Shown here: positions 40,770-48,511 of the stretch, piece after piece
How the letters are laid out: each line of letters begins with the position of its first letter
How positions within the stretch are numbered: the first letter of the stretch is position 1
Source: Haloarcula pelagica
Lineage (GTDB): Archaea > Halobacteriota > Halobacteria > Halobacteriales > Haloarculaceae
Direction of reading: 5' to 3'
Length of the DNA: 64,000 nucleotides
Assembly: GCF_030127105.1 (NCBI RefSeq)
Contig: NZ_CP126162.1
Coordinates: forward strand, 186,001 to 250,000
Notes under the pieces: generated by a model
Told to the model about the DNA's origin: nothing
Databases searched by the model: none
The model's input: only the letters and a program-made list of their open reading frames with translations
Position numbers and translations under genes: made by a program

Positions 40770-41927
40770 TCAGTCGGTCTCCACGGACGGTGGGGTCGTG
40801 TCGGGCTGTTCGGTGGTGGCACCGCTCCAGTCGAACCGCCGCTGGAAGGCCAGTGCGACGTTGACGAGCGCCAGCAGCACGGGCACCTCGATGAGGGGCC
40901 CGACGACGGTGGTGAACGCGACGCCGGAACCGACACCGAACACCGCGACGGCGACCGCGATCGCGAGTTCGAAGTTGTTCGAGGCGGCGGTGAAACCGAT
41001 CGCCGTCGTCGTCGAGTAGTCCGCGCCGACGCCCTTGCCCATCCCGAAGCTCACCAGAAACATCACGACGAAGTAGATGGTCAGCGGGACGGCGATCAGG
41101 AGCACGTCGCCGGGCGAGGCGACGATCGTCTCCCCCTGGGTGGCGAACATCACGACGATCGTAAACAGGAGCGCGATCAGGGTCAGCGGATCGATCGTCG
41201 GGACGAACTGCTCGTCGTACCACGCCTGTCCCTTGGTTCGCGTACCGACGTACCGCGTGAGGAAGCCGCCGGCGAAGGGGATCCCGAGGAAGACGACGAT
41301 GGCCTGGAACACCTGCATCGGCGTCACGTCGAACGTCTCGATGCCGGCGACGAGCGTCTCCATGCCGAGCAGCGGCGGGAGGACGAGCGCGAAGAACCAG
41401 ACGTAGACGCCGTATGTCACGATCTGGAAGAGGCTGTTGAACGCGACCAACCCGGTCACGTACTCGGTCGACCCGTCCGCGAGTTCGTTCCAGACGAGCA
41501 CCATCGCGATGCACCGCGCCATGCCGATGAACACGAGTCCGAGGAAGTACTCCGGGCGGGCAGGCAGCCCGGGGACGAGCCCGCTGAAGAAGATCACGGC
41601 CAGCCCGAACATGAGTGTCGGACCGATCAGCCAGTTCTGGACGAGACTCAGGCCGAGGACGCGCCAGTTGCGGAACACGGCCCGGAGTTGCGAGTACTCG
41701 GCTTTCGCCAGCGGTGGATACATCATGGCGACGAGGCCGATCTCGACCAGATGGAACTGCTGGATCGGGCGCGTGACCGACGGCGCGACGAACCCGAGAC
41801 CGACGCCGACGGCCATCGCGGCGACGATCCAGACGGTGAGGTACTTATCGAGGAAGTCCATCGACCGCGGATCACCACAGCTCTCACAGTCACAGTTCGG
41901 GCCGTGGGACTGCTCGACGCTACTCAT
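40770..41927 (-). CDS. ACR3-type arsenite efflux permease
   Basis: Arsenite/H+ antiporter of the ACR3 (BASS superfamily) type, 385 aa, about ten membrane helices. Family motifs: YPPLAKAEYSQLRAVFRNWR, then MARCIAMVLVWNELADG with the essential Cys, and FTAASNNFELAIAVAVAVFG. The N-terminus has a Cys-rich extension (PNCDCESCGDP) before the first helix, which may bind arsenite. The ATG at 41925-41927 overlaps the end of arsM (ATGAGTAG), so translation is coupled. Last gene of the arsR-arsM-ACR3 operon; it exports As(III) from the cell. Confidence 0.88.
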   Translation of the reverse strand: MSSVEQSHGPNCDCESCGDPRSMDFLDKYLTVWIVAAMAVGVGLGFVAPSVTRPIQQFHLVEIGLVAMMYPPLAKAEYSQLRAVFRNWRVLGLSLVQNWLIGPTLMFGLAVIFFSGLVPGLPARPEYFLGLVFIGMARCIAMVLVWNELADGSTEYVTGLVAFNSLFQIVTYGVYVWFFALVLPPLLGMETLVAGIETFDVTPMQVFQAIVVFLGIPFAGGFLTRYVGTRTKGQAWYDEQFVPTIDPLTLIALLFTIVVMFATQGETIVASPGDVLLIAVPLTIYFVVMFLVSFGMGKGVGADYSTTTAIGFTAASNNFELAIAVAVAVFGVGSGVAFTTVVGPLIEVPVLLALVNVALAFQRRFDWSGATTEQPDTTPPSVETD

Positions 41928-42774
41928 CGTCGCTTTCCGGCTTTCTGGCGGTGATCGTCGCCGAAACCAGGAACTCGCTCACGTCGTACTCGTCGTCCCA
42001 GTCCCGGATGAACTCGTCACTGTCGTCGTTCGGCGAGATACTGATCGATTCGAAGCCCGCGTCGGCGAGGAGCCGGTCGAGCCGGTCGATTGTCGAGGCG
42101 CCGGCGACACAGGACGCGACGGACTCGGGGTCCGCCCGAACGTCGTCAGGCACCGCCGCGGTCAGGACGACATCGGAAATCGCGAGACGCCCACCCTGAC
42201 GGAGGACGCGAAAGGCCTCATGGAACACCTGCTGTTTGTCCGGCGAGAGGTTCACGACGCAGTTCGAGATGATCACGTCGACGCTGGAATCGGAGACCGG
42301 GAGGTGCTCGATCTCGCCCAGGCGGAACTCGACGGTTTCGGCCCCGTTTTCCTCGGCGTTCGCACGCGCTTTCCGGACCATCTCGGGCGTCATGTCGACG
42401 CCGATCACGCGGCCCGTCGGACCGACCTCGTCGGCGGCGAGGAAGCAGTCGAACCCAGCACCCGACCCGAGATCGAGCACCGACTCGCCCGCAGCCAGCG
42501 ACGCGATCGCCTGCGGATTACCGCAGCCAAGCCCCAGGTTCGCGTCGCCGTCGACACGGGCCAACTCGCCGTCGGAGTAGCCGAGTTTCCGGGCCGTCTC
42601 GTCACTGGGAGCCGCCGCGTCCTCAGAACTACAGCAGGAGTCGTCGCTCGAACAGCAGTTGCCGCCGTCCTCGCGCTCGCCGGTCGCGATGCGAGCGTAC
42701 CGTTCCCGGACGACTTCCCGCTGTGTCCGTGCGTCGAGCCCGGACGCTGCCGTGGCATCGTTCGACTCAGGCAT
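41920..42774 (-). CDS. arsM: Arsenite S-adenosylmethionine methyltransferase
   Basis: ArsM-type methyltransferase, 284 aa, converting As(III) to methylated arsenicals with S-adenosylmethionine. SAM-binding motif SVLDLGSGAGFDCFLAADEV, then GVDMTPEMVRKAR; arsenite-binding Cys at DVIISNCVVNLSPDK, VASCVAGAS and an N-terminal cluster NCCSSDDSCCSSED. ATG at 42772-42774 (MPESNDATA) chosen because homologues begin a little before the DxxTQREVVRERYARIA helix. In-frame upstream codons to 42903 exist but read as low-complexity sequence. Separated from arsR by 156 bases, which contain a small overlapping reading frame. Confidence 0.85.
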   Translation of the reverse strand: MPESNDATAASGLDARTQREVVRERYARIATGEREDGGNCCSSDDSCCSSEDAAAPSDETARKLGYSDGELARVDGDANLGLGCGNPQAIASLAAGESVLDLGSGAGFDCFLAADEVGPTGRVIGVDMTPEMVRKARANAEENGAETVEFRLGEIEHLPVSDSSVDVIISNCVVNLSPDKQQVFHEAFRVLRQGGRLAISDVVLTAAVPDDVRADPESVASCVAGASTIDRLDRLLADAGFESISISPNDDSDEFIRDWDDEYDVSEFLVSATITARKPESDDE

Positions 42775-42934
42775 CGATCGGTTCCTCCCCATCGGTCGCG
42801 TCGAACAACGCACGACGGCCGGTTCGACCGTCGTGGCGGCTGTCCCGAACCCGGTCAAGCCCGGATCCGTCGCGCCTGCCGCCTGCCCGACCACCGCCGT
42901 CACCCCCGGGACCGTCCGTAGCGAGTTCGATCAT
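42767..42934 (-). CDS. Possible 55-aa bridging ORF between arsR and arsM
   Basis: Starts ATGATC, where its ATGA overlaps the arsR stop codon, and ends TGA inside the first codons of arsM, so it exactly bridges the two genes. The product would be MIELATDGPGGDGGGRAGG..., rich in Gly, Arg and Asp, ending GEEPIDA. No family recognised. Third-position GC is visibly lower than in the neighbouring genes, which argues against strong coding selection. It may be a translated coupling peptide or chance. Confidence 0.25.
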   Translation of the reverse strand: MIELATDGPGGDGGGRAGGRRDGSGLDRVRDSRHDGRTGRRALFDATDGEEPIDA

Positions 42935-43326
42935 CGGTCGCCCCGCGTCTCGTCGAGGGCCGCCAACAGCGCTTCGGCACGGTCGGTCGCCTCGTAGTAC
43001 CGCCACGTCCCGTCCTTGCGACGGGTGACGAGGCCGGCGTCGTAGAGGTCCGACAGCGCGTGGCTGATCGCACTGTCGCTGACATCGACGACCGGATTGA
43101 TCTCACAGACACACAACTCACGGTCCGCAGCCGTCAGCAGCCGGACGATCGCGTATCGCGTGTCGTTGCCCAGTGTCTTGAGCGCGCTGAGATCGGTGTC
43201 GGCGTCCGCGGGAGCCGCCGACTGGTACGAGCGCAGCGAGTCCAGGCGGTCCTCGATGTCGGCCTCGCAGCACCCGCCGCTTTCCTCGGTGATGAGTCGT
43301 TCGAGTCGGTCCGTCTGTGAGCTCAT
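42931..43326 (-). CDS. arsR: ArsR-family repressor
   Basis: Winged-helix metalloregulator, 131 aa. Core reads LKTLGNDTRYAIVRLLTAAD, then ELCVCEINPVVDVSDSAISH and ALSDLYDAGLVTRRKDGTW. The ELCVCE motif is the classical As(III)/metal site of the alpha3 helix, and an extra Cys pair lies near the N-terminus (GGCCEAD). It would release DNA on binding arsenite and so induce arsM and ACR3 downstream. ATG at 43324-43326, with TATA TTATATGA about 24-31 bases upstream and an inverted repeat between TATA box and start. Confidence 0.88.
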   Translation of the reverse strand: MSSQTDRLERLITEESGGCCEADIEDRLDSLRSYQSAAPADADTDLSALKTLGNDTRYAIVRLLTAADRELCVCEINPVVDVSDSAISHALSDLYDAGLVTRRKDGTWRYYEATDRAEALLAALDETRGDR

Positions 43327-43351: not shown

Positions 43352-43498
43352 TATAACTGTGTTGGACCGGAACCGATGGCGTAGGTCAACGGAGGCCGGG
43401 TGACTCTGGCTCACCCGCGAATACTTGTGAATGGACTAACAACTATACGGTGCGATACAGCGGTACCGAACGACGGCCGACTCCGACACAGAGCCCCA

Positions 43499-44722
43499 AT
43501 GGATATCCAAAACATCGTTTCGACCGACTACACGGAACTGTCACCAGAGACCCCTGTCTCGAAGCTCGTCGGTGTGTTCGACGACCCTGCGGTCAAAGGC
43601 GTCGTGGTCCACGGCGACGAGTTCGAGGGAGTCGTAACCAGACGCCAGTTGGCGACATCACACCACCAACCCAACGAGAAGCTCCGCTCGCTCCGCTGGC
43701 ACGTGCCACGACTCGCGCCGGACGAGGACATCCGGACGGCCGCCCGGTTGATGCTGGACAGCGACTCGCAGTTGCTTCCCGTGTTCGACGGCCCCGAGCT
43801 GATCGGCGTGGTCACCGCCGAGGACCTCCTCCAGGCGGTGCGTCCCTTCCTCGACGCGGTGACCGTCGCCGACGCCTACACGCCCGAGATGGTGACAGTC
43901 GAACCGGGAACGAGTTTCGGGACGGCACTCAACGTCTTCCGGGAACACCGGATCACACATCTGCCGGTCGTCGACGGCGACACGGCGGTCGGAATCCTGA
44001 GTCTCTACGACGTGACCGGTCTCACCGTCAGGGCCACGACACAGAGCCAGGGGGGCGATCCCGGCGGGACCGACCCGTTCGGCGGTGACATCGCCGCCGG
44101 AAGCGGCCGCGCACGCGGCGGGGGATTCGGCGCGCGGGACGGCGAACTCACGCGGCTGCTTGATCTCCCGGTACGGGACCTGATGATCGAACCGGTCCGG
44201 ACGATCCAGCCGACTGCGACGCTGGACGTGGCGCTCGACGCGATGACAGAGATCGACGCCTCGTCGCTGCTGGTCACGGACGACGGCTCGCCGTACGGCA
44301 TCGTCACGAAGACGGATATCCTCGATTCGCTCACCTGGGAAGCGGGCGGGAACCGCTCCGTCCAGTTGTACGGGGCAGACCTGCTCGACGACATCCAGTA
44401 CGAGGAGATCGTCGCGATGATCGACAAGTTCGACGACAGGGACCACGACATGAACATCCTCGACGCGAAGATCCACATGCACGAACACGACGAAAAACAC
44501 CGCGGCACACCGCTGTTGCTCGCCCGGATCCGCCTGCACACCGACCGCGGGCTGTTCGTCGCGTCGGGAGAGGGGTACGGCGCCAGTCACGCCCTCAACG
44601 AGGCGCGTGACGTGATGGAGCGACAGATCCGGGACGAGAAAACGTACGGACGCAGCAAGAAGCCGCGGGGCGAGGAGTTCTGGGAGAAACGCTTCGGCTG
44701 GCTGCTCGAAGGCGACGGGTGA
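43499..44722 (+). CDS. Four-CBS-domain protein with ribosome-hibernation-like tail
   Basis: 407-aa protein. Four CBS repeats at about residues 5-55, 70-120, 125-180 and 225-280, each with the VVTxxDL/GIVTKTDIL type of ending; repeats 3 and 4 are joined by a Gly-rich linker (TQSQGGDPGGTDPFGG). The last 110 residues (AKIHMHEHDEKHRGTPLLLA, then GYGASHALNEARDVMERQIR) resemble the HPF/RaiA (sigma-54 modulation) fold, ending in a basic stretch KTYGRSKKPRGEEFWEKRFG. CBS repeats bind adenosine nucleotides, so this could be an energy-sensing ribosome-silencing factor. ATG at 43499. It stands alone, divergent from arsR. Confidence 0.82.
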   Translation: MDIQNIVSTDYTELSPETPVSKLVGVFDDPAVKGVVVHGDEFEGVVTRRQLATSHHQPNEKLRSLRWHVPRLAPDEDIRTAARLMLDSDSQLLPVFDGPELIGVVTAEDLLQAVRPFLDAVTVADAYTPEMVTVEPGTSFGTALNVFREHRITHLPVVDGDTAVGILSLYDVTGLTVRATTQSQGGDPGGTDPFGGDIAAGSGRARGGGFGARDGELTRLLDLPVRDLMIEPVRTIQPTATLDVALDAMTEIDASSLLVTDDGSPYGIVTKTDILDSLTWEAGGNRSVQLYGADLLDDIQYEEIVAMIDKFDDRDHDMNILDAKIHMHEHDEKHRGTPLLLARIRLHTDRGLFVASGEGYGASHALNEARDVMERQIRDEKTYGRSKKPRGEEFWEKRFGWLLEGDG

Positions 44723-44769: not shown

Positions 44770-45192
44770 ATGGACTTCGATGCCTTCACCGGCGAGATCC
44801 AGCACCGACTCGGCCTCCCCGGAACCGGTGAGACCGTCCGCGCGATCCGAGCGACGCTCATGACCCTCGGGGAACGCCTGCCGGAAGGACAGGCGGCCGA
44901 CTTCGCCGCGTCGCTGCCGGGCGAGATCCAGTGGTACATGACCGGGGCGGTCCACGAACACGGCCGCCGCTTCGACTGGGCGGAGTTCGTCGACCGTGTC
45001 AGCGAGATCGAAGGCGCCGACCGCGCCGATGCGGCGTATCACGCCCGTGTCATCGTCGACCTGGCACACACGGTGGTCCCGCCGTCGGACTTCCAGCAAC
45101 TGCGGGACGCCCTGCCGGAGAGCGAGGACGACGAGGACTGGCGCAACCTCTTCGAAGTCGTCGACAGCGGTGGCTGGAGCGAGCATTCGTGA
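44770..45192 (+). CDS. DUF2267 protein
   Basis: 140-aa acidic protein matching DUF2267: it contains two copies of a helical repeat, the first reading AIRATLMTLGERLPEGQAAD, then SLPGEIQWYM. Members often occur near stress or CBS-domain proteins, as here (48 bases after the CBS gene, same strand). Function unknown. Start ATG at 44770 preceded by TAATTTACGG, a weak TATA-like stretch too close to the ATG, so it is probably read through from the upstream gene. Confidence 0.8.
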   Translation: MDFDAFTGEIQHRLGLPGTGETVRAIRATLMTLGERLPEGQAADFAASLPGEIQWYMTGAVHEHGRRFDWAEFVDRVSEIEGADRADAAYHARVIVDLAHTVVPPSDFQQLRDALPESEDDEDWRNLFEVVDSGGWSEHS

Positions 45193-46236: not shown

Positions 46237-46824
46237 TCAGACCAGCAGTTGGATGTCGGCGTCGGCCATATCCTGCAGGGCAGTGGCCGCGCCGACGCCC
46301 GTGGTGACGCCGTCGTAGAAGTCGTCCTCGTCGTAGCCCATGAGGTCGATCGTCATCTGACAGGCCTGGAACTCCACGCCCATGTCCAGGCTCGTCTCCA
46401 GCAGTTCCTCGATGGTGGCGGTGTCGTTGTCGGCGATCTTCTTCTCCATCATCCGGGTCGTCATCCGGTCCATCCCCGGGAGCGCGGCGACGGCGTTTGG
46501 CACCGGCATGTTGGGGTTGCCGACCGAACTCAGCTTGAGGTCTTTCGACCGCTCCTCGTGGAGGATATCCAGCCCCCAGAACGTGTGAAAGACGGTCACG
46601 TCGTAGCCGAAGGCGGCGGCGGTGCTGGCGAGGATCAACGGCGGGTAGGCCATGTCCAGTGTCCCCTTCGTCGCGATGATCGACAGCTTCCGCTGGTCGT
46701 CGTCCGACTGTGCCTCGGCGAGTGCGGTTTCGAGCTCGTCCACGCGCGCGGCCAGTTCCGCGCGCGAGGGAGCGTCGGCGTCCACCGAATCCGTGCTCTC
46801 GTCGGCCGTCGTATCGGTGCTCAT
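46237..46824 (-). CDS. DsrE2-like sulfurtransferase subunit
   Basis: 195-aa DsrE/DsrF-like protein of the DsrE2 (COG2210) type. After a disordered acidic N-terminus and a short coiled segment (RAELAARVDELETALAEAQS), the core starts LSIIATKGTLDMAYPPLILA and includes DVTVFHTFWGLDIL and the conserved Cys motif EFQACQMTIDLMG. Partner genes encode TusA and a rhodanese, the rhd-tusA-dsrE2 set known from sulfur-oxidising prokaryotes. Start ATG at 46822-46824, two bases after the tusA stop. It would carry protein-bound persulfide in the cytoplasm. Confidence 0.82.
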   Translation of the reverse strand: MSTDTTADESTDSVDADAPSRAELAARVDELETALAEAQSDDDQRKLSIIATKGTLDMAYPPLILASTAAAFGYDVTVFHTFWGLDILHEERSKDLKLSSVGNPNMPVPNAVAALPGMDRMTTRMMEKKIADNDTATIEELLETSLDMGVEFQACQMTIDLMGYDEDDFYDGVTTGVGAATALQDMADADIQLLV

Positions 46825-46826
46825 CG

Positions 46827-47072
46827 TTACTCCGTCTTGCGGACGTAGTGGGTATACACGTCGTCCCCGTCCACCTGATCGAGGAGTTCGACGCCGGGGG
46901 TCCCCGAGGCCCAGCCGTCGATGTCGCTCATGCTGCCCGGGTCCGTGGCGAGGACTTCGAGCACCTCGCCGGCGTCGAGGTCGTCGATCGCCGTCTTCGT
47001 CTTGACCACCGGCATCGGGCACGATGCGCCTTGTACGTCGAGTGTCTCCGCGATGTCGTATTCAGTACTCAT
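46827..47072 (-). CDS. tusA: TusA-family sulfur carrier
   Basis: 81-aa TusA/SirA-like protein with the CPxP sulfur-carrying site in VQGASCPMPVVKTKTAIDDL. Length and fold pattern are typical. ATG at 47070-47072. Upstream on the coding strand lies TATATTGC (47111-47118) and a TACCC-T-GGGTA palindrome. It forms an operon with the DsrE2-like gene and is divergent from the rhodanese/persulfide-dioxygenase operon. Likely role: relay of sulfane sulfur to thiolation or oxidation enzymes. Confidence 0.87.
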   Translation of the reverse strand: MSTEYDIAETLDVQGASCPMPVVKTKTAIDDLDAGEVLEVLATDPGSMSDIDGWASGTPGVELLDQVDGDDVYTHYVRKTE

Positions 47073-47116
47073 TGGGTATCCGCTCCGTTGTATTGTATTG
47101 GAGCTATCGAGCAATA

Positions 47117-47127
47117 TACCCTGGGTA
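47117..47127. promoter_or_regulatory. Palindrome in the divergent sulfur-gene promoter region
   Basis: TACCC-T-GGGTA, an 11-base perfect palindrome overlapping the TATA-like element of tusA, 45-55 bases before its ATG. Candidate operator for a regulator of the tusA-dsrE operon. Confidence 0.35.
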
Positions 47128-47317
47128 GTAAAAAGAATGTTGGTTCTTGTACAATCGTCAAACAACTACGCCCACCACGATCTCGACGTACAGCTCTCGT
47201 CTATGTTTTGAGGGCTGAGCGTCGTCTTTGTGGGCGTTCGGAGGAGGGTGTATTGTGTAGTTAGTGAAAATCTATGAAAACGCTTTAGTATGCCCACCCG
47301 ATACGTGAGTGTACGAG

Positions 47318-48511
47318 ATGAATCCCGAAGACTTCCCGACCCCCGACGCGGACGTGGAGACAGTCGACCCGGTGACGCTGAAAAGCCGCATCGACGACGG
47401 TGAGGACGTAACGTTACTCGACGCCCGCATGGCGTCTGAGTACGAGGAGTGGCACATCGACGGCGACACCGTCACCTCGCTCAACGTTCCGTACTTCGAG
47501 TTCCTCGACGACGACATCGACGACGAGGTCCTCGCGCAGGTCCCCGACGACCGCGAGGTGACCGTCCTCTGTGCGAAAGGCGGCGCCAGCGAGTTCGTCG
47601 CCGGGACCCTGGCCGACCGCGGCTACGATGTCGACCACCTCGACGGCGGGATGAACGGCTGGGCGGAGATCTACGAGGCGGTCGAGGTCACGGACTACGA
47701 GGGCGCGGGGACGCTCCTGCAGTACCAGCGCCCGTCGTCGGGCTGTCTCGGCTACTTCCTCTACGACGACGGCGAGGCCGCGGTGATCGACCCGCTGCGG
47801 GCGTTCACCGACCGGTACCTGGACGACGCCGACGAACTGGGCGTCGACCTCCGGTACGCGCTCGATACGCACATCCACGCCGACCACGTCTCGGGCGTGC
47901 GCAAACTGGACGAGCGGGGTGTCGAGGGCGTCGTCCCGGCGGCGGCGGTCGACCGCGGTGTCACCTACGCCGACGAACTGACGACGGCCGCCGACGGTGA
48001 CGAGTTCCGGGTCGGCGAGGCGACCATCGAGACGGTCCACACACCCGGCCACACCACGGGCATGACTTCCTATCTCGTCGACGGCGGCCTGCTTGCGACC
48101 GGTGACGGCCTCTTCGTCGAGAGCGTCGCCCGCCCGGACCTCGAAGAGGGCGACGACGGTGCCCCCGAAGCCGCACGGCTGCTCTACGAGAGCCTCCAGG
48201 AGCGTGTCCTGTCGCTGCCCGAGGACACGCTGATCGGCGGCGCGCACTTCAGCGACGCCGCAGCGCCGGCCGCCGACGGGACCTACACGGCACCGATCGG
48301 CGACCTCGTCGCGGAGATGGACGCGCTGACGATGGCCGAACAGGAGTTCGTCGACCTGATCCTCTCGGACATGCCGCCGCGGCCGGCCAACTACGAGGAG
48401 ATCATCGCCACCAACCTCGGCCAGAACGCCGTCGACGACGACGAGGCGTTCACGCTCGAACTCGGTCCGAACAACTGTGCAGCGAGCCAGGAGTCGCTGG
48501 CGGGTGACTAA
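47318..48511 (+). CDS. Rhodanese - metallo-beta-lactamase fusion, persulfide dioxygenase type
   Basis: 397-aa fusion. Residues about 15-115 are a rhodanese domain with catalytic Cys in VLCAKGGASEF. From about 130 a metallo-beta-lactamase domain follows: DTHIHADHVSG, VHTPGHTTGMTSYLV, LLATGDGLFVES and a late GGAHFSD supply the metal ligands of glyoxalase II/persulfide-dioxygenase (ETHE1-like) enzymes. It may oxidise or transfer persulfide sulfur delivered by TusA/DsrE. ATG at 47318-47320 was preferred to a GTG three codons upstream. TATA CTTTAGTATG lies about 27-36 bases before it. Confidence 0.83.
   Translation: MNPEDFPTPDADVETVDPVTLKSRIDDGEDVTLLDARMASEYEEWHIDGDTVTSLNVPYFEFLDDDIDDEVLAQVPDDREVTVLCAKGGASEFVAGTLADRGYDVDHLDGGMNGWAEIYEAVEVTDYEGAGTLLQYQRPSSGCLGYFLYDDGEAAVIDPLRAFTDRYLDDADELGVDLRYALDTHIHADHVSGVRKLDERGVEGVVPAAAVDRGVTYADELTTAADGDEFRVGEATIETVHTPGHTTGMTSYLVDGGLLATGDGLFVESVARPDLEEGDDGAPEAARLLYESLQERVLSLPEDTLIGGAHFSDAAAPAADGTYTAPIGDLVAEMDALTMAEQEFVDLILSDMPPRPANYEEIIATNLGQNAVDDDEAFTLELGPNNCAASQESLAGD

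Follow-up and report, generated by a model that had tools for sequence, protein, structure and literature searches.

The window analysed here, a 64,000-nucleotide stretch of DNA from Haloarcula pelagica, lies on a secondary contig of 479 kb (C2) and carries an uninterrupted reading frame on its forward strand at 43499..44722, running from an ATG at 43499 to a stop codon at 44720-44722. The encoded protein of 407 amino acids, whose gene is called hibA2 below, is assigned from the open reading frames, Pfam, phmmer and a phylogenetic tree to an accessory HibA paralogue with four CBS domains and an HPF/RaiA domain. A GTG at 43400 offers an alternative upstream start and a longer frame, but the ATG at 43499 is preferred because all homologue alignments, that of PDB chain 9l96_a included, begin there.

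Pfam recognizes CBS in four stretches of the protein (E 1.6e-35), and together with a structure model and a motif check these resolve into four tandem N-terminal domains, all on the forward strand. CBS1 (approximately residues 1-55, 43499..43663) has the motif GVVTRRQ, in which the Asp of the nucleotide motif GhhT/SxxD is missing, and CBS2 (approximately residues 60-118, 43676..43852) has GVVTAED. The nucleotide motif is intact in CBS3 (GILSLYD, approximately residues 120-177, 43856..44029) and in CBS4 (GIVTKTD, approximately residues 221-282, 44159..44344), and between these two domains alignments place a Gly-rich loop at residues 180-220 (44036..44158). An HPF/RaiA-like domain is predicted by modelling and fold search at residues 286-380 (44354..44638), and is followed by a basic, clade-specific C-terminal tail, KK...EEFWEKRFGW, at residues 381-407 (44639..44719, alignment and charge count). 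The basic stretch noticed in the first-pass annotation is real: residues 378-398 have a net charge of +3 in a protein whose net charge is -30, and the tail is conserved.

The same annotation had proposed that four CBS domains are fused to an HPF/RaiA-like tail, and both parts have been borne out, the second by structure prediction. With residues 288-407 alone, Pfam Ribosomal_S30AE remained sub-threshold (E 0.0049; 18.0 bits, where 23.7 are required), so that sequence by itself was rejected as proof of the domain and a fold test was needed. In the full-length model (pLDDT 69) all fold matches were taken by CBS structures, leaving the HPF half unprobed, and residues 282-407 were for this reason folded separately. 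The resulting model has a pLDDT of about 91-96 across most of its core and the C-terminal b-a-b-b-b-a topology of HibA proteins, and its top matches in Foldseek and VIA-align are HPF/YfiA/RaiA structures. The best of these is Vibrio cholerae HPF (Z 12.1 over 91 residues, 2.4 A), tied with HPF of the Escherichia coli hibernating ribosome, whereas the first unrelated fold, a dsRBD, scores Z 7.9 and further dsRBDs score lower. The comparison with HPF/RaiA that had been suggested for this segment thus came out in favor of an HPF fold, and we hold with high confidence that the predicted C-terminal domain has it.

This architecture is already known: it is that of HibA, an archaeal hibernation factor described in April 2026 as a fusion of four CBS domains with HPF/RaiA (PMC13324472). 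On the 70S ribosome of Pyrococcus abyssi, the HPF domain of HibA sits in the 30S channel, while the CBS module takes three positions on the 50S subunit, in one of which loop 190-207 is inserted into the peptidyl-transferase centre (PTC); binding has been seen both with material from cells and in reconstitution (PMC13324472). HibA has been shown to inhibit translation and to aid the return from stationary phase in P. abyssi and Thermococcus barophilus, with deletion of hibA in the latter delaying recovery and lowering 70S, although the isolated CBS domain of the P. abyssi protein gave no significant inhibition (PMC13324472). The hibA2 protein is related to P. abyssi HibA across both halves (phmmer 7.3e-34, in two stretches covering 2-190 and 210-383; 29% identity across 371 aligned residues), and the HPF core residues and motifs are common to it, canonical haloarchaeal HibA and P. 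abyssi HibA. It shares with the Pyrococcus and Thermococcus proteins (PMC13324472; PDB 9sr9 and others) the four CBS domains, the CBS3-CBS4 or PTC loop and the C-terminal HPF/RaiA domain; the P. abyssi protein differs in its short PTC loop (residues 190-207) without a Gly-rich insertion and in its tail, and has been studied on 70S.

Other CBS proteins of archaeal ribosomes, Dri of Pyrobaculum and SriA-D of Methanosarcina, are some of the best fold matches to the CBS half, but they lack an HPF/RaiA domain. Dri consists of two CBS modules (eight CBS domains), compared with only four CBS domains detected by Pfam in the hibA2 protein, and SriA-D and the CM families consist of a CBS module alone. 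Bacterial long HPF has its HPF domain at the N-terminus followed by a C-terminal dimerisation domain, while in the hibA2 protein the HPF domain is C-terminal and only a 27-residue tail comes after it.

What the first-pass annotation missed is that hibA2 is an accessory paralogue and not the main HibA gene of its genome. A second protein with four CBS domains and HPF, of 380 amino acids and 37% identical to the hibA2 protein, is encoded on the chromosome (C1:447024-448163, L010). Of 382 haloarchaeal genomes, 377 have relatives of this canonical form at E <= 1e-110; the accessory clade of hibA2, counted at E <= 1e-80, spans 139 of the 391 genomes searched (60 of the 86 genera), and occurs also on 38 plasmid records. 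With P. abyssi HibA as its root, a tree gives the accessory clade, 9l96_a included, a support of 0.988 and sets it apart from the canonical clade (support 1.0). The canonical protein, a near-universal chromosomal gene product, has the same domain order and HPF core motif but a shorter CBS3-CBS4 linker and another tail. Haloferax volcanii HVO_2384, a protein with CBS and hibernation domains that co-purified with a Pat2 variant (PMC12607858), appears from its description to be of the canonical kind.

There is also a second accessory type, with an identity of about 50%, and Haloferax mediterranei has one gene of each type, on pHME505 and pHME132; the second-type gene on pHME132 (L181:7001-8209) adjoins sodium:calcium antiporter and magnesium transporter genes. 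The match to a Natronosalvus hydrolyticus copy (L086) is limited to query residues 164-404, possibly the mark of a decaying or truncated gene. In the H. pelagica genome, the CBS matches at C1:62240-62581 and C1:3498679-3499020, and those at C3:17477-17614 and C3:232762-232899, are pairwise identical in score and ORF length, which points to a long duplication or to untrimmed overlap at the ends of circular contigs. An origin of hibA2 as phage or virus cargo was rejected, there being no match to it in 50,697 phage records.

The features that set the accessory clade apart are its loop and its tail. The CBS3-CBS4 linker has 43 residues in the hibA2 protein, 42-43 in almost every close relative (one has 29) and 37-41 in the second accessory type, as against 18 in canonical haloarchaeal HibA. 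The clade has a Gly-rich insertion of 19-25 residues, SQGG...GGFGxREGE, whose pattern SqGG ... GGfGaReGe is kept in 32 sequences and which aligns inside the P. abyssi PTC loop at residues 190-207; the loop of the hibA2 protein is enlarged by about 25 residues. Likewise, the tail KKp..eefWekRFGW is conserved in the accessory clade and absent in canonical HibA.

The gene neighborhood is distinctive as well. A DUF2267 gene (44770..45192) follows hibA2 after 47 bp in the same orientation, is likely co-transcribed with it and, from window ORFs and a neighborhood survey, is a recurrent neighbor in the clade. On the other side, hibA2 is divergent from an arsenic resistance cluster on the reverse strand (40770-43326) that comprises an ACR3/SBF-type transporter, a Cys-rich methyltransferase (probable ArsM) and an ArsR-type regulator. 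A probable sulfur/persulfide module of DsrE-like, TusA, rhodanese and metallo-beta-lactamase genes adjoins the locus at 46237-48511. Neighbors were counted at 38 accessory loci, at 20 canonical loci and in 20 arbitrary stretches of chromosome, with these results in the same order: Usp 27, 0 and 4; phosphoribosyltransferase 20, 0 and 0; DUF2267 20, 0 and 0; P-type ATPase 11, 1 and 0; dienelactone-hydrolase-like proteins 10, 0 and 0; nitroreductase 8, 0 and 0; and Hsp20 6, 0 and 0, a contrast that is somewhat inflated because the query proteins were taken from the accessory loci themselves. Usp is a large family, yet its contrast with both comparison sets persists. These seven families form a recurrent island around accessory hibA (L050-L086 and the window), which we take to resemble the mycobacterial DosR dormancy regulon. 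That regulon contains Usp, Hsp20, CBS, HPF, nitroreductase and P-type ATPase genes. The accessory long-loop form in stress islands is a variant of the known HibA family, and a search of the HibA paper's text (PMC13324472) turned up no description of it.

Structural evidence comes from deposited entries. PDB chain 9l96_a is identical over 406 of 406 residues to WP_004060604.1, encoded on H. mediterranei pHME505, and is 69% identical to the hibA2 protein over its full length (phmmer 1.2e-193). It belongs to the accessory clade and has both the Gly-rich loop and the WEKRFGW tail, and comes from another family of haloarchaea. A haloarchaeal uL3 of the same set, possibly from H. mediterranei itself, was found in eight entries (9l94, 9l95, 9l96, 9l98, 9l9c, 9l9j, 9l9k and 9l9v), of which four (9l96, 9l98, 9l9c and 9l9v) hold the accessory HibA chain and three (9l9c, 9l9j and 9l9v) hold aIF6, two of them (9l9c and 9l9v) both, as read from chain sequence searches. 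Sequence searches of PDB chains found no haloarchaeal uS7, uS12 or aSBDS, and canonical HibA was absent from the 9l94-9l9v set. We infer that these entries are large-subunit particles, some with accessory HibA, some with aIF6 and some with both. A literature search for publications on 9L96, or on comparable haloarchaeal ribosomes, found none.

The suggestion that the fusion silences ribosomes is therefore supported by the membership in HibA, the cryo-EM of HibA on ribosomes and the Thermococcales deletion phenotype (PMC13324472), and by the presence of the H. mediterranei relative in large-subunit entries. Overall, it is very probable that hibA2 encodes an accessory HibA paralogue and ribosome hibernation factor, most likely deployed under stress and acting on the large subunit. 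By analogy with its relatives, the hibA2 protein should bind ribosomes, with its HPF/RaiA domain occupying the mRNA/tRNA channel of the small subunit, its four-CBS disk covering the tRNA sites on the large subunit and its enlarged Gly-rich loop entering the PTC. Most likely, the enlarged loop suits the protein to cover the PTC, on free 50S as well; the loop placement, the protection of 50S and a control by nucleotides are all inferred for the hibA2 protein. HPF domains usually anchor on 30S, and binding to free 50S would be unusual. Judging from the H. mediterranei relative, accessory HibA could hold free 50S, in some particles with aIF6, an anti-association factor, and would probably keep it inactive and protected until growth restarts.

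The first-pass annotation also envisaged a sensor of energy charge, a role that is plausible for the hibA2 protein. CBS3 and CBS4, in which the nucleotide motif is intact, correspond to the nucleotide site of P. abyssi HibA, and AMP or ATP may bind there and tune the action of the protein. In P. abyssi HibA, AMP (Kd 12 uM) is bound better than ATP (113 uM), and neither clearly changed ribosome binding (PMC13324472).

The strongest alternative is plain redundancy, in which the extra copy does the very same job on 70S as chromosomal HibA and differs from it only in the growth conditions under which it acts. The longer loop and the tail would then be of no particular importance, and the entries with 50S only would stem from subunits that came apart while the samples were prepared. 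The shared domain order and HPF core motifs and the binding of P. abyssi HibA to 70S (PMC13324472) give this reading some weight, but it is brought into doubt by the separate clade with a loop and tail conserved across many genera, by a neighborhood different from that of canonical hibA and by PDB entries that hold the accessory protein and not canonical HibA; we consider it possible, though clearly the less probable outcome. That aIF6 accompanies the CBS chain in two of its four entries, and that no 30S protein was found, might instead indicate a factor for assembly or quality control of the large subunit that works with aIF6 on pre-50S rather than in hibernation. This is improbable, since the gene is missing in about two thirds of haloarchaea and can therefore be no core assembly factor, its context is one of stress genes, and it encodes an HPF/RaiA domain, which to our knowledge binds the small-subunit channel in all characterised relatives. 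A CBS-domain stress regulator, which would control transcription as HhpR does or act on other proteins and whose HPF-like domain no longer binds ribosomes, is most improbable, given that the 69%-identical relative sits in ribosome entries and that the protein and P. abyssi HibA have the HPF core residues in common. In its favor there is a sub-threshold NCBIfam match to HhpR (37.7 bits against a cut-off of 520), which reflects shared CBS domains.

For the accessory hibernation factor, a broader proposal can be offered tentatively, at somewhat less than even likelihood. Haloarchaeal hibernation may be divided between two paralogues of HibA, the first chromosomal and near-universal, the second accessory, carried in stress-gene islands and often megaplasmid-borne. 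The enlarged Gly-rich loop of the second would lock the PTC of free 50S with aIF6, instead of or besides stored 70S. The hibA2 form travels with stress genes, in contrast to the housekeeping copy in its genome. Studies of bacterial HPF-type factors and of P. abyssi HibA have dealt chiefly with whole ribosomes. The question of a split is directly testable, as H. mediterranei carries the accessory protein, which is also in the deposited structures. If true, a HibA paralogue that holds free large subunits with aIF6 would show the adaptation of one fold to another state of the ribosome and contribute to explaining why many haloarchaea have two or more hibernation factors.
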